A DNA stretch of 64,000 bases from Prevotellaceae bacterium MN60 (GTDB lineage: Bacteria; Bacteroidota; Bacteroidia; Bacteroidales; Bacteroidaceae). The notes under the pieces are model-generated. The model saw only the letters and a list, made by a program, of their open reading frames with translations. It did not search any database and was not told the origin of the DNA. Below, one piece after another: positions 43,167 to 48,019 of the stretch. The stretch covers positions 186,001-250,000 of the forward strand of contig FZQZ01000001.1 of the NCBI GenBank assembly GCA_900199555.1, read 5' to 3'. A program made the position numbers and the translations under genes. The stretch's first letter is position 1. Every line of letters starts with the position of its first letter.

Positions 43167-43961
43167 TTACTTATTGATTTCTATATCATTTCTTACATTA
43201 TTGCGAATCTTGGTGAGATAGCCTTTCATTCCTTTGGCATCCTTATCATCAATGATTTGCAATAATTCTTTCAGCTCCGTACGAATCTGAGCCACCTGAT
43301 CGTGGGTGTAGGGGTTGAACAGAATCTCCTGCAAGAGATAGTCGTCTTCATTCAATACACCTTTAGCTATACGCATGTGACGCTTAAAGGTAGTACCTGG
43401 TGCATCCTGATGCTTCATCACTGCAGCAAAGACGAAGGTAGAGACAAAGGGGATACTCAGTGAGTAAGCCACCGTCTTGTCGTGTTCCTCAAAACTATAC
43501 TCATAGATATTCAGTCCTAACTTGGCATAGAGGTCCTTGAAGAAGATACGTCCCATATAGTCACCCTCGCTGATGATGATAGCATTCTCCTCAGAGAGCT
43601 GCTGCAGATTGGCAAAGGTAGGACCAAACATGGGGTGAGTAGATACATAGCGACGTCCAGACTGCTCGTAGAAGTCTTTCAGGTCAGTCTTCACCGAAGC
43701 GATATCGCTGATGATGCAATCCTCAGGCAGATAAGGCAACACCTGCTTGAATACCGTAATCGTGTATTTCAGCGTAACGGCATTAATCACCAGCTCCGGC
43801 TTAAAATCGCGTATCTCTTCCATCGAGGTAAAGCGCTGACAGTTGTAGGTAAAGCGCATACGCTTAGGATCTTTCTCATAAACGGCCACCTCGTGGTCAA
43901 AGCTCAGCAGGTCGATAAAGAACGAGCCCATCTTACCTGCTCCCAAAACTAATATCTTCAT
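43167..43961 (-). CDS. tyrA: Prephenate dehydrogenase
   Basis: 264-residue NAD(P)-dependent enzyme of tyrosine synthesis. The N-terminal Rossmann motif is ILVLGAGKMGSFF (3-15), followed by the SDIASVKTDL and HPMFGPTFANL segments conserved in TyrA. It lacks a fused chorismate mutase, which in this operon is carried by the DAHP synthase. Last gene of the aromatic operon, 3 bp after its neighbour. Confidence 0.92.
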   Translation of the reverse strand: MKILVLGAGKMGSFFIDLLSFDHEVAVYEKDPKRMRFTYNCQRFTSMEEIRDFKPELVINAVTLKYTITVFKQVLPYLPEDCIISDIASVKTDLKDFYEQSGRRYVSTHPMFGPTFANLQQLSEENAIIISEGDYMGRIFFKDLYAKLGLNIYEYSFEEHDKTVAYSLSIPFVSTFVFAAVMKHQDAPGTTFKRHMRIAKGVLNEDDYLLQEILFNPYTHDQVAQIRTELKELLQIIDDKDAKGMKGYLTKIRNNVRNDIEINK

Positions 43962-43964
43962 GTA

Positions 43965-45029
43965 TTACTGATTTACTATCTCTATTTGCTGACGAACAGA
44001 CTCTTCGTGAATGCTCTCAAACACCTTAGCGACAAACTCTGGCGACATACCAGTCAGAGCACCCTGTGCACCGCGCTTCTCCAGTATCTCATTATAGCGT
44101 GAGGTCTGCAGCACCGTCATATTGTGTTCTTTCTTATACTTACCAATCTCGCGACATACGCCCATACGCTTGGCCAGCAACTCCATCAACTGGTTGTCCA
44201 CCTCGTCAATCTGCTTACGCAACTGGACGATGCTTTCTGTGGTCACATGCTCGTCGCGGATAACCAACAGCGACAGGATATAGTCCAGCACATCAGGTGT
44301 TACCTGCTGCTTAGCATCACTCCAAGCCTTATCAGGATCGCAGTGGCTCTCTACTATCAGACCATCAAAGCCTAAGTCCATCGCTTGCTGACACAGCGGA
44401 GCTACCAACTCGCGACGTCCACCGATATGCGAGGGGTCGCAGATGATGGGGAGTCCGGGAATACGACGATGCAGTTCGATAGGTATCTGCCACATCGGCG
44501 CATTACGATATATCTTCTGCTCAAAGCTGGAGAAACCACGATGAATAGCACCCAGGCGCTTCACACCAGCCTGATTGATACGTTCCAAAGCACCAATCCA
44601 CAACTCCAAGTCGGGATTAACGGGGTTCTTCACGAATACAGGCACATCAACACCCTTCAGCGAATCGGCCAGAGCCTGCACAGCAAAGGGGTTTGCTGAC
44701 GTACGGGCACCAATCCACAGGATGTCCACATCATATTTCAGGGCCAGTTCTACGTGCTCTGGTGTTGCCACCTCAGTAGATACCAGCATTTTGGTTTCTT
44801 CCTTCACCTGCTTCAACCAGGGCAGTGCCTTCTCGCCATGACCTTCAAAGCCACCTGGCTTAGTTCGTGGTTTCCAGATTCCGGCACGGAAATTATGACA
44901 ACCTTTCTTTGCCAACTGGTGGGCGGTGGCCATCACTTGCTCCTCGGTCTCAGCACTACATGGTCCTGCAATGACGAAGGGGCGTTCGTTATCACTCGGT
45001 AAATTTAAGGGTAGAAGTTCCAGTTCCAT
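43965..45029 (-). CDS. Bifunctional DAHP synthase/chorismate mutase
   Basis: 354 residues. Residues 1-260 are a class I-beta DAHP synthase (PFVIAGPCSAETEEQVMATA, RAGIWKPRTKPGGFEGHGEK, CDPSHIGGRRELV, ESHCDPDKAWSD), condensing PEP and erythrose-4-phosphate. Residues about 268-350 are an AroQ-type chorismate mutase (LRKQIDEVDNQLMELLAKRM). The fusion catalyses the first shikimate step and the branch to prephenate. In this operon it serves both tyrA and pheA. Confidence 0.95.
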   Translation of the reverse strand: MELELLPLNLPSDNERPFVIAGPCSAETEEQVMATAHQLAKKGCHNFRAGIWKPRTKPGGFEGHGEKALPWLKQVKEETKMLVSTEVATPEHVELALKYDVDILWIGARTSANPFAVQALADSLKGVDVPVFVKNPVNPDLELWIGALERINQAGVKRLGAIHRGFSSFEQKIYRNAPMWQIPIELHRRIPGLPIICDPSHIGGRRELVAPLCQQAMDLGFDGLIVESHCDPDKAWSDAKQQVTPDVLDYILSLLVIRDEHVTTESIVQLRKQIDEVDNQLMELLAKRMGVCREIGKYKKEHNMTVLQTSRYNEILEKRGAQGALTGMSPEFVAKVFESIHEESVRQQIEIVNQ

Positions 45030-45031
45030 AT

Positions 45032-46192
45032 TTATATTGCTTTTTTAATTCGTTCTAATGCTTCTTGTATTTTCTCTTCTTTCGCACAGAGTGAGATGCG
45101 GATATAGCGCTCACCATTCGAGCCAAAGATAAATCCCGGGGTGATGAATACGCGAGCCTCGTGGAGTATGCGCTCTGTCAGCTCTTCCACATGCTGATAG
45201 CTCTCGGGAATGCGTCCCCACAGGAACATACCCACCTGCTGCTTATCATACTTACAACCCAGCACATCCATTATCTGTTCGGCATACTGGCGACGACGTG
45301 CATAGCGCTCTATATTGGCCTCACGATGCCACTCATCGCTATTCTTATACGCCTCTGCTGCAGCCAACTGGATACCTCTAAACGTACCACTCTCTATATT
45401 CGACTGCACCTTCAGTATCCATTGGATAAACTGTGCATTTGTTGCACACATTCCCACACGCCAGCCTGGCATATTATGACTCTTCGACATCGAGTTAAAC
45501 TCAATACAGCAGTCTTTAGCACCGGGCACCTGCAGAATACTCAGATGCTCTTCGCTCAGGATAAAGCTGTAGGGGTTATCGTTCACCACGACGATGTCGT
45601 GGTCTGTAGCGAATTGAACCAAGCGCTCGTAGGTCTTACGCTGAGCACGACCACCAGTAGGCATATTGGGATAGTTGGTCCACATCAGTTTCACCCTGCT
45701 CAGGTCCATCTTCTCCAGCTCGTCAAAGTCGGGCTGCCATCCATTGTCTTCGCGCAGATTATAGTTCACAATTTTGGCACCCAGTATCTTTGACAAAGAG
45801 GTATAGGTAGGATAGCCGGGATTAGGCACCAGCACCTCATCGCCTGGATTTACGAAAGCCAGCGTCACGTGCAGAATACCTTCCTTCGAACCAATCAGTG
45901 GCAACAGCTCTGTCTTGGCATCCAGCTCTACATCATACCAACGCTTATAGAATCCCGCCATTGCTTCGCGCAGCTCTGGTGTACCCTGCGTGGGCTGATA
46001 GCCGTGAGCGTTAGGTTGTCTGGCCACCTCACAAAGTTTCTCGATGGTCTGTTCTGATGGTGGCATATCCGGACTACCAATGGCCAGACTGATAATGTCT
46101 TTGCCCTCGGCATTCAACTGAGCCACCTCCTTCAGTTTTCTGCTGAAGTAGTATTCACTCACTGAGTTTAATCTTTCTGCTGGTTGTATCAT
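45032..46192 (-). CDS. PLP-dependent aminotransferase (class I/II)
   Basis: 386-residue fold-type I aminotransferase. VLVPNPGYPTYTSL, TNYPNMPTGGRAQ, NDNPYSFIL and EFNSMSKSHNMPGWRVGM with the PLP-binding Lys are conserved. Between pheA and the DAHP synthase/chorismate mutase gene it most likely transaminates phenylpyruvate and 4-hydroxyphenylpyruvate, or prephenate. The sequence class also includes LL-diaminopimelate and aspartate aminotransferases. Confidence 0.9.
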   Translation of the reverse strand: MIQPAERLNSVSEYYFSRKLKEVAQLNAEGKDIISLAIGSPDMPPSEQTIEKLCEVARQPNAHGYQPTQGTPELREAMAGFYKRWYDVELDAKTELLPLIGSKEGILHVTLAFVNPGDEVLVPNPGYPTYTSLSKILGAKIVNYNLREDNGWQPDFDELEKMDLSRVKLMWTNYPNMPTGGRAQRKTYERLVQFATDHDIVVVNDNPYSFILSEEHLSILQVPGAKDCCIEFNSMSKSHNMPGWRVGMCATNAQFIQWILKVQSNIESGTFRGIQLAAAEAYKNSDEWHREANIERYARRRQYAEQIMDVLGCKYDKQQVGMFLWGRIPESYQHVEELTERILHEARVFITPGFIFGSNGERYIRISLCAKEEKIQEALERIKKAI

Positions 46193-46209: not shown

Positions 46210-47052
46210 TCAATTTGTTTGCTTTCCGTCTTTATATTCGCCCAATATTTTGAAGCCTTTAGTCAGGGGGATGATGGCATCTATCGACTGGCGATAGCGT
46301 GTCAGGTCATCAAACATCACATCCACATAGAACAGATATTCCCACTCGCGTCCGATGATGGGCAACGACTGTATCTTTGTCAGATTGATATGATAGAACG
46401 AGAGGATGGCCAACACATGGCTCAGCGAGCCTTCTTCGTGAGGCAGCGAGAATACGATGCTAGCCTTGTTGGCATCAGTCAGTGGGCGCAACATATCGGC
46501 CTTGTTAGGATTGCTCACCACGAGGAAACGGGTAAAGTTGTGCTTATTATCCTCGATATGGTCTTCCAGCACCTTCAGTCCATAGAGTCGTGCAGCCTCC
46601 GCATGACAGATGGCAGCCCATCCTCTTCTGCCCTCCTCGGCTATCATCTTTGCCGAACCTGCCGTATCTTCTGCTTCCACATTCTTCAGTTGTGGATGTT
46701 GCGCCAAGAAGTTGCGACACTGCATCAAGGCTACCGGATGAGAGTGTACCTCTGATATCGTATCCCAGTCGTCCTCGGGCAGACAGCAGATACAGTGGGT
46801 GATATGCAGTTTATGCTCGCCAACGATGGTGGTACCACTCTCACGCAACAAGTCGTAGTTGTGTAGCAGCGAACCTGCAATCGTATTCTCGATAGCTGTC
46901 ATACCTATCACTGTTGGGTCTTGACGAATATGGTCAAACACCTCTTCAAACGTAGAGCAGCACATCAACTGTATCTGCTCACCCTCGAAATAGAGGTGGG
47001 CGGCAATATCGTGAAACGAGCCCTTCAGTCCTTGTATCGCAATTCTCTTCAT
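46210..47052 (-). CDS. pheA: Prephenate dehydratase
   Basis: 280-residue monofunctional enzyme converting prephenate to phenylpyruvate. IAIQGLKGSFHDIAAHLYFE opens the catalytic domain; GMTAIENTIAGSLLHNYDLL and TRFLVV (TRF motif) follow, and the C-terminal ACT domain (SIVFSLPHEEGSLSHVLAIL, then INLTKIQSLPI) gives phenylalanine feedback. The start at 47052 is chosen because the longer frame would read through the attenuator hairpin. It opens the operon pheA-aminotransferase-DAHPS/CM-tyrA (gaps 17, 2 and 3 bp). Confidence 0.95.
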   Translation of the reverse strand: MKRIAIQGLKGSFHDIAAHLYFEGEQIQLMCCSTFEEVFDHIRQDPTVIGMTAIENTIAGSLLHNYDLLRESGTTIVGEHKLHITHCICCLPEDDWDTISEVHSHPVALMQCRNFLAQHPQLKNVEAEDTAGSAKMIAEEGRRGWAAICHAEAARLYGLKVLEDHIEDNKHNFTRFLVVSNPNKADMLRPLTDANKASIVFSLPHEEGSLSHVLAILSFYHINLTKIQSLPIIGREWEYLFYVDVMFDDLTRYRQSIDAIIPLTKGFKILGEYKDGKQTN

Positions 47053-47071: not shown

Positions 47072-47108
47072 AAAAGAAATCCCGCTTTCACTCTGTTGTG
47101 AAGCGGGA
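47072..47108 (-). terminator. Attenuator hairpin ahead of pheA
   Basis: In RNA sense TCCCGCTTCAC (47108-47098) pairs with GTGAAAGCGGGA (47091-47080) around AACAGA, followed by TTTCTTTT, 20 nt before the pheA ATG. Its 5' arm (CCGCTTCACA) is also complementary over 10 nt to TGTGAAGCGG inside the leader peptide coding region (47164-47155), which can act as antiterminator. Confidence 0.85.
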
Positions 47109-47140
47109 CCTTATTTATTTTTATTTCCAAGTTTCAATTC

Positions 47141-47218
47141 TTACATACGGCCATCCGCTTCACAGTTCTCTGCAAAGTAAAAATAAAAGCCGTAAAAGTA
47201 AGCATTCAACATGTTCAT
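47141..47218 (-). CDS. pheL: Phe/Tyr-rich leader peptide of the aromatic operon
   Basis: 25-residue peptide, MNMLNAYFYGFYFYFAENCE followed by ADGRM. Eight of nine residues in positions 7-15 are Phe or Tyr, which fits ribosome stalling when charged tRNA-Phe or tRNA-Tyr is scarce. Immediately after these codons lies the antiterminator strand (47165-47154). It is 33 nt from the attenuator hairpin and is preceded by its own promoter. By analogy with enterobacterial pheL; the sequence is unrelated. Confidence 0.85.
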   Translation of the reverse strand: MNMLNAYFYGFYFYFAENCEADGRM

Positions 47219-47245
47219 TGTCTCTATTTTATTGTTTATCGTTTG

Positions 47246-47277
47246 CAAAAGTATAACATTTCCCGCAATTATACAAA
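47246..47277 (-). promoter_or_regulatory. Promoter for the pheA operon leader
   Basis: Minus-strand TTTG (47277-47274), 20-bp spacer, TACTTTTG (47253-47246), 28 bp before the leader peptide ATG. Confidence 0.75.
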
Positions 47278-47293
47278 CTTTTTGAAAGAAATT

Positions 47294-47324
47294 TTTGCAT
47301 ATCCTATACTTTTTATTATTTTTG
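47294..47324 (+). promoter_or_regulatory. Promoter for the HAD hydrolase gene
   Basis: TTTG (47294-47297), 19-bp spacer, TATTTTTG (47317-47324); back to back with the pheA promoter. Confidence 0.75.
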
Positions 47325-47350
47325 CAAAATATATACATCACAGACTATCT

Positions 47351-48019
47351 ATGGATAACATGACAGGAATAAGACTGATTATATTTGATTTCGACGGTAC
47401 GTTGGGCGACACCCGACGTAATATAGTTATGACGATGCAGATGGCCATCAAGGAGATGGGCCTGCCCTATCGCAGTGAGGAGGCGTGTGCTGCTACTATC
47501 GGACTGCCTCTTGCGGGATGTTTCAAGGCCATGTTCCCCGATATTGACGAGGCGCTGATTCCGCGCTGTGCTGCTACCTACAGGCGCTTGTTCAACGAGA
47601 ATCTGCAGAACTTCAAGCCTGAGGCGTTCCCTGCTGTGGTTGAAACCTTAGCAGCTCTCAAGGCACAGGGATTCACGCTGAGCATTGCCTCGTCGCGCTC
47701 TCACAACTCGCTGGTAGAGTTGTCACAGAATATGGGCATCGCCACCTATATCTCCTATCTGATTGGTGCCGACGATGTCAAGCAGGCCAAGCCTCATCCC
47801 GAGCCTGTGCTCAACACGCTCGGGGCGCTCCACTTTGATGCCTCTGAGGCTTTGGTGGTGGGCGATATGGCTGTTGATATACTGATGGGCGCTCGTGCGG
47901 GCACCAAGACTTGCGGTGTTACATGGGGCAATGGCACCCAGAGCGAGCTGGAGCAGGCTGGCGCCGATATCATCATCGATAGCATGCAAGCGCTTATCAC
48001 CCATCTTTCTGCCCAGTAG
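47351..48019 (+). CDS. HAD family hydrolase (phosphoglycolate phosphatase-like)
   Basis: 222 residues. FDFDGTLGDTRRN (nucleophile Asp), a helical cap, IASSRSHNSL (motif II), and GADDVKQAKPHPEPVLNTLG with GDMAVDILMGARAG (motifs III/IV) define a Gph-like phosphatase. The ATG at 47351 is chosen; an upstream in-frame start would overlap the promoter. A second ATG at 47360 is possible. Substrate unknown. Confidence 0.88.
   Translation: MDNMTGIRLIIFDFDGTLGDTRRNIVMTMQMAIKEMGLPYRSEEACAATIGLPLAGCFKAMFPDIDEALIPRCAATYRRLFNENLQNFKPEAFPAVVETLAALKAQGFTLSIASSRSHNSLVELSQNMGIATYISYLIGADDVKQAKPHPEPVLNTLGALHFDASEALVVGDMAVDILMGARAGTKTCGVTWGNGTQSELEQAGADIIIDSMQALITHLSAQ

Follow-up and report, generated by a model that had tools for sequence, protein, structure and literature searches.

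The window, a 64 000-nucleotide stretch of DNA from Prevotellaceae bacterium MN60, carries on its minus strand an operon of four genes: pheA, an aminotransferase gene, a gene that fuses DAHP synthase to chorismate mutase, and tyrA (Table 1). These four genes comprise the phenylalanine and tyrosine branch plus its entry enzyme, with none of them reaching its own NCBIfam curated cut-off; the aromatic role of the aminotransferase is suggested by its operon context. The whole regulatory element lies on the same strand, at 47277–47072, between pheA and a divergent ORF on the plus strand, and is arranged in the order promoter, 25-codon ORF, antiterminator strand, terminator, T-run and pheA, the start of pheA (47052) being 19 nt past the T-run. 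A first-pass annotation of this DNA had proposed leader-peptide attenuation, listing a promoter, a 25-residue peptide, a terminator with its T-run and a 10-nt alternative pairing, in this order before pheA. All of these parts are located where it had placed them, and the strand, which it left unstated, is minus; the features of the DNA thus support its reading of the element as a putative attenuator.

Table 1. Positions of the leader features and operon genes, numbered from the first letter of the window
Feature	Position	Strand	Description	Basis
−33 element	47274..47277	−	TTTG	Sequence
−7 element	47246..47253	−	TAnnTTTG, here TACTTTTG; 20-nt spacer from TTTG	Sequence
Predicted leader ORF	47141..47218	−	25 codons, MNMLNAYFYGFYFYFAENCEADGRM; ATG at 47218, stop TAA	Sequence
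Control codons	47174..47200	−	Tyr-Phe-Tyr-Gly-Phe-Tyr-Phe-Tyr-Phe	Sequence
Local hairpin (segments 1:2)	47158..47177	−	CTTTGCAG/CTGTGAAG; can sequester the antiterminator strand	Predicted fold
Predicted antiterminator strand (segment 2)	47155..47164	−	TGTGAAGCGG; perfect 10-bp complement of CCGCTTCACA (47097–47106)	
Predicted intrinsic terminator hairpin (segments 3:4)	47077..47111	−	−18.8 kcal/mol; 5′ arm contains 47097–47106	
T-run of the terminator	47072..47079	−	TTTCTTTT	Sequence
pheA (gene 1)	46213..47052	−	Prephenate dehydratase	NCBIfam E 6.1e-58, 196.2 bits; curated cut-off of 219 not reached
Gene 2	45032..46192	−	PLP aminotransferase	Best model LL-diaminopimelate aminotransferase, below cut-off
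Gene 3	43965..45029	−	DAHP synthase-chorismate mutase fusion	E 1.9e-57 and 6.5e-15, below curated cut-offs
tyrA (gene 4)	43167..43961	−	Prephenate dehydrogenase	Best E 5.3e-20, below curated cut-off

Bacteroidetes promoters are of another type than those of E. coli, and the two elements 5′ of the leader match the Bacteroidetes consensus. Among 211 loci from the relatives described below, TAnnTTTG occurs no more than 75 nt 5′ of the leader ATG in 175 (median distance 35 nt) versus 7 of 211 shuffled ones, and it is accompanied by a TTG-type −33 element in 155 versus one of 211 shuffled. The short leader is preceded by this predicted promoter of its own, from whose position transcription would start at around 47240. 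The fold of the leader strand has a z-score of −4.75, and none of 200 shuffles was equally stable. The predicted intrinsic terminator stands between the leader and the first gene, and because the ORF 5′ of the leader is divergent (it is listed at 47243–48019 on the plus strand from a TTG start, the ATG at 47351 being the likelier start), it serves no upstream transcript in the window.

The predicted leader ORF is rich in codons for the products of the operon, with eight Phe/Tyr codons among nine consecutive ones. Both strands of the window were scanned for residue-rich ATG ORFs of 10–45 codons with a terminator (−9 kcal/mol or lower) no more than 220 nt downstream, and the sole Phe/Tyr match was the leader before pheA. 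This leader is also the one strong site (E 3.2e-18; runner-up 0.016) found in the home genome by a covariance model built from the leaders.

Conservation of the leader in Bacteroidia

Whole-genome searches matched PheA in 120 of 150 genomes of the genus, 108 of 121 at the family level, 68 of 148 at the order level, 57 of 197 at the class level and 102 of 118 at the phylum level. We analysed 255 upstream regions: 57 from the home genus, probably Prevotella as GTDB defines it (home locus included), 65 from the family, 65 from the order, 54 from the class and 14 from the phylum. The order set contains every matched order-level genome, the class set 54 of 56 matched genomes and the phylum set 14 of 76; the genus and family sets cover part of the matches, many of them chosen for top score. 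A leader was called where at least six of nine codons were Phe/Tyr.

A Phe/Tyr leader ORF is present 5′ of PheA at 216 of the 255 loci (56/57 in the genus, 64/65 in the family, 56/65 in the order, 38/54 in the class and 2/14 in the phylum), and at 211 loci it is followed by a terminator (55 in the order, 38 in the class and 2 in the phylum, besides those of the genus and family given next). The first-pass annotation would have given up its reading had close relatives retained neither the Phe/Tyr codons nor the alternative pairing; they retain both, with leader and terminator together at 55 of 57 genus loci and 61 of 65 family loci. Dinucleotide shuffling of upstream regions (n = 1004) gave 11 Phe/Tyr ORFs and a single ORF with a terminator, and the corresponding numbers from the reverse strands of 251 real regions were 18 and 8. 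Two of the negative loci (L076 and L163) have only 18 and 4 nt of upstream sequence, and one further locus (L144, with 216 nt upstream) has the leader and lacks the terminator; at the class level, 16 of the 54 loci have no leader at the six-of-nine threshold.

Leader and terminator were also found at 75 of 80 loci from named genomes, a sample that is not independent of the 255-locus set, since it shares several contigs with it, among them those of Phocaeicola massiliensis, Paraprevotella xylaniphila and Prevotellamassilia in the home family; three of the five misses have at most 168 nt of upstream sequence. The positive genomes include Bacteroides fragilis S82, B. finegoldii, B. xylanisolvens, Phocaeicola vulgatus ATCC 8482, P. 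massiliensis and Paraprevotella xylaniphila. The predicted pheA attenuator is class-wide rather than limited to the genus, and is found in most of the relatives examined.

The aminotransferase gene follows pheA on the same strand at 36/37 of the loci examined in the genus, 25/25 in the family, 22/27 in the order, 32/40 in the class and 2/6 in the phylum. At the six phylum loci, leader and aminotransferase are both present in two and both absent in four. The class set contains eight leaders with no aminotransferase nearby and nine loci with the aminotransferase and no leader; the corresponding numbers in the order are three and two.

Several genomes and loci fall outside these counts or at their margin. 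Five loci below the six-of-nine threshold, counted as negative (L091, L093, L145, L176 and L203), have by eye shorter or Trp-containing aromatic leaders, and in three of them, at the class level (L091, L093 and L176), Trp is mixed with Phe/Tyr. Thirty of the 150 genus-level genomes have no PheA match; among the 69 with completeness of 90% or more and contamination of 5% or less, 14 have none. In four of the genomes without a match (G003, G010, G017 and G023) the leader model gives nothing or weak matches only; loss of the entire operon would fit the genus genomes that have neither PheA nor leader. Thirteen family-level genomes (genera g15 and g19) match only a longer, apparently bifunctional PheA with 30–33% identity, and were left out of the leader counts.

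Alternative pairing and ribosome position

The predicted antiterminator uses the 5′ arm of the terminator, so that the two structures would be mutually exclusive. Over 227 units, the best antiterminator helix scores a median of 8, the mean for shuffled leader segments being 4.7; it was matched by none of 40 shuffles in 143 units and by at most one of 40 in 167, with 60 of the 227 failing this latter filter. Pairing with the terminator of the same locus exceeds pairing with those of other loci in the family (8.13 versus 7.41), the order (7.56 versus 5.25) and the class (7.10 versus 5.04), in a comparison that took in all units of these three sets. The local 1:2 hairpin, which could protect the antiterminator strand, is barely above shuffled controls in relatives.

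Alignment of upstream regions, which the first-pass annotation had proposed as a check for conserved codons and covariation, bears the pairing out, with two-sided compensatory changes in both helices. In 50 aligned leaders, picked among the units in which at most one of 40 shuffles reached the helix and therefore favouring the antiterminator figures, the antiterminator helix is 81.4% paired, falling to at most 48.7% once it is slid by one to three columns, and contains 52 cells with two-sided change versus 18.0 in shuffles (reached by none of 500). The number of antiterminator pairs with two-sided change in the same leaders (8 of 11) is unexceptional, the shuffled mean being 6.3 and 72 of 500 shuffles reaching it. 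The terminator shows two-sided changes in 10 of 10 aligned pairs (shuffled, 5.4) and in 61 cells versus 14.3. Both the terminator and the antiterminator helices covary.

Many loci also have a conserved TATGTA-like stretch 3′ of the antiterminator strand (47141–47147 on the minus strand of the window; alignment columns around 72–80). Pairing with the first Phe/Tyr codons is one possible role for it, and a polymerase pause signal another.

The antiterminator strand begins 12 nt after the last Phe/Tyr codon in the home leader and 10–21 nt after it in 214 of the 227 units (median 15), compared with 319 of 1135 shuffles, a spacing that fits a stalled ribosome. The position of the stop codon varies: among units with a clear helix, the 5–95% range of its distance from the antiterminator strand is −3 to 40 nt for family units and −5 to 38 nt for order units. 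Folding was then modelled with the ribosome footprint masked and the transcript cut past the 5′ arm of the terminator. On this cut transcript, the antiterminator probability of the home leader is 0.96 for a ribosome stalled at the last Phe codon and 0.00007 for one at the stop codon, the ribosome-free RNA giving 0.45. Of the 167 units modelled, 129 have a stalled value more than 0.1 above the stop value, and four show the opposite. For the 52 family units modelled, the antiterminator probability at the stop still averages 0.61, because many of their stop codons fall well beyond the antiterminator strand. The cut-transcript model thus predicts that a stalled ribosome would free the antiterminator strand and that a ribosome at the stop would hide it, less clearly so in the family. 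At equilibrium, the full-length transcript favours the terminator in all ribosome states (0.86 for the home leader both stalled and at the stop; group means 0.74–0.93), so that the antiterminator would have to form first, during transcription.

Units in series and sites outside pheA

Two Phe/Tyr leader-terminator units are present in series 5′ of pheA at 14 of the 255 loci, representing 11 families within the order and class (L062, L069, L073, L074, L097, L098, L126, L149, L153, L155, L157, L159, L167 and L168), and the covariance model gave two further double-unit loci (L349 and L350). A second full unit is unlikely to arise by chance, because only one of the 1004 shuffles gave even one. At four of the loci (L062, L069, L073 and L074, from three families), both units have antiterminator helices of 7–11 bp that at most one of 40 shuffles reaches, and the second units have a common GGTGG core, suggestive of a single ancient duplication. 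The other ten have at least one weaker helix (the second helix of L157 has 3 bp), and these are therefore ranked as candidates only. With such an arrangement, polymerase would have to pass two terminators under Phe/Tyr control. A further double unit (L060) was dropped, its first 'terminator' being a Phe/Tyr coding stretch behind a TTG-started ORF.

The double leader of the order-level locus L350 lies directly before a gene that by eye resembles the second gene of the operon, being aminotransferase-like; thus the leader need not precede pheA. Among the other covariance matches outside pheA, no leader unit was found at that of genome G005 (E 6.8e-5, L346) or at L348 and L353, and L347, where a Phe/Tyr ORF with a TTG start precedes a repeat-like hairpin, was unconvincing by eye.

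A proposed dual-sensing attenuator and its alternatives

In our interpretation, the element is very probably a ribosome-mediated transcription attenuator responding jointly to charged tRNA-Phe and tRNA-Tyr, and the operon is probably switched on when phenylalanine or tyrosine runs short. From the parts of the element, their order and spacing, their conservation and their covariation we infer premature termination in the cell, ribosome stalling and an action of both amino acids. Polymerase would start at around 47240, and a ribosome would translate the 25-codon leader. If Phe-tRNA or Tyr-tRNA were short, the ribosome would stall at one of the eight Phe/Tyr codons, with its front edge just short of TGTGAAGCGG; this strand, left free, would pair with the emerging 5′ arm of the terminator, permitting read-through into pheA, the aminotransferase gene, aroG/CM and tyrA. 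If both tRNAs were plentiful, the ribosome would reach the stop codon and cover TGTGAAGCGG, so that the terminator would form and transcription would end before pheA.

The first-pass annotation had taken the mixed codons to suit an operon that serves both amino acids, and the relatives agree with it: Phe and Tyr codons occur together, in an order that differs among the leader peptides, in the nine-codon window of 223 of the 227 units (Phe only in four, Tyr only in none), and the operon makes both products. These observations speak against an attenuator that is real and answers effectively to one amino acid, the other codons being passengers of an RNA rich in TTT and TAC. We regard that reading as unlikely, while giving weight to two points in its favour, namely that the final control codon is Phe in 175 units and Tyr in 52, and that two leaders (L063 and L154) carry Phe codons and no Tyr. 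Considerably less probable is an RNA in which a metabolite, a tRNA (in the manner of a T-box) or a protein, and not a stalled ribosome, chooses between the hairpins. The alternative structures by themselves are compatible with a switch of this kind, and the conserved TATGTA stretch is not fully explained, but the conservation of the Phe/Tyr codons and of their spacing from the antiterminator argues against it. Moreover, no Rfam family, T-box included, reaches its cut-off in the window, and none is found at the leader in 15 further loci, where the three matches (Flavo-1 and tRNA) lie elsewhere.

The conservation of the peptide within the genus, as NAYFYGYYFYFA...CEA, is what a functional small protein would show, the hairpins then merely ending its transcript. 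However, the C-terminal frame and the length of the peptide shift between genera while the nucleotides stay, which is the opposite of protein conservation. In the genus, 53 of 55 units read the GCGG core in frame 0 (NCEA), whereas of the 59 family units that hold it, 42 have it in frame 2 (KVKRE), 16 past the stop and one in frame 0; conservation thus acts on the RNA pairing and not on the peptide tail. Since the only strong copy in the home genome also precedes pheA, a small-protein function seems scarcely credible. A chance combination of AT-rich sequence with an ordinary terminator can draw on the abundance of TTT and TAC codons in AT-rich DNA and on the hits obtained from reverse strands, but it is refuted by conservation (211 of 255 real regions versus 1 of 1004 shuffles) and by the covariation of both helices.

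Returning to the ribosome-read, dual-sensing leader, we lean slightly towards the fuller proposal that it controls the Phe/Tyr operon in the class Bacteroidia, either shortage opening the gate, and that serial units, clear in three families and candidate in up to eleven, would repress more deeply and respond more steeply than a single attenuator.

Enterobacterial pheL contains Phe codons only, whereas here Phe and Tyr codons alternate and the operon also makes tyrosine. The element has a leader peptide, hairpin logic and a terminator before pheA in common with the enterobacterial pheL-pheA leader (Phe_leader, RF01859), whose model aligns over its full length (1–125) at 47216–47071; at 22.2 bits (E 0.2), compared with a gathering threshold of 55, the pheA leader is not a member. 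Bacteroid-trp (RF01692), which we take to be a Trp leader, gave no covariance match in the window or the home genome, and the pheA leader differs from it in both codons and genes. Bacteroid-trp is a Bacteroidetes motif given by Weinberg 2010 (PMC2864571).

The first-pass annotation had called a Phe/Tyr version less familiar, which holds as far as the lack of an Rfam match in the window and the 15 loci is concerned, but a pheA 5′ element had already been mentioned: a 2021 study of Flavobacterium psychrophilum noted a structured 5′ element upstream of pheA, found also in other Flavobacteriaceae genera and without an Rfam match, as well as clues to leader-peptide attenuation in amino-acid operons (PMC9723704). 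The finding is thus partly in print. The passages on the pheA element give no leader sequence, Tyr codons, antiterminator or conservation beyond the family, and the overlap may exceed what these passages show. Mixed Phe/Tyr uORFs, as here, were proposed near shikimate genes in five genomes, with no link to Bacteroidia pheA operons in the part that presents them (PMC6429828, Fig. 6b). Elsewhere, phenylalanine operons are placed under attenuators and tyrosine ones under T-boxes (PMC1262725). Tandem attenuators, with two short ORFs in one regulatory leader, are described for Salmonella mgtCBR (PMC3641672); the genes there are different, and in the serial units before pheA each member is a Phe/Tyr leader that has a separate terminator. 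The kind of system is therefore known, whereas a class-wide dual Phe/Tyr attenuator with serial duplicates is, as far as we have searched, not described in such detail in the open-access literature. Vitreschak 2004 and Lopatovskaya 2010, both cited in this literature, may include predictions that overlap with it.

The leader is the likely regulator of phenylalanine and tyrosine synthesis in Bacteroides, Phocaeicola and their relatives, and one without an entry in the Rfam release searched. As a dual Phe/Tyr leader it offers hundreds of natural variants, and its serial duplicates permit a direct test of why attenuators would be stacked.
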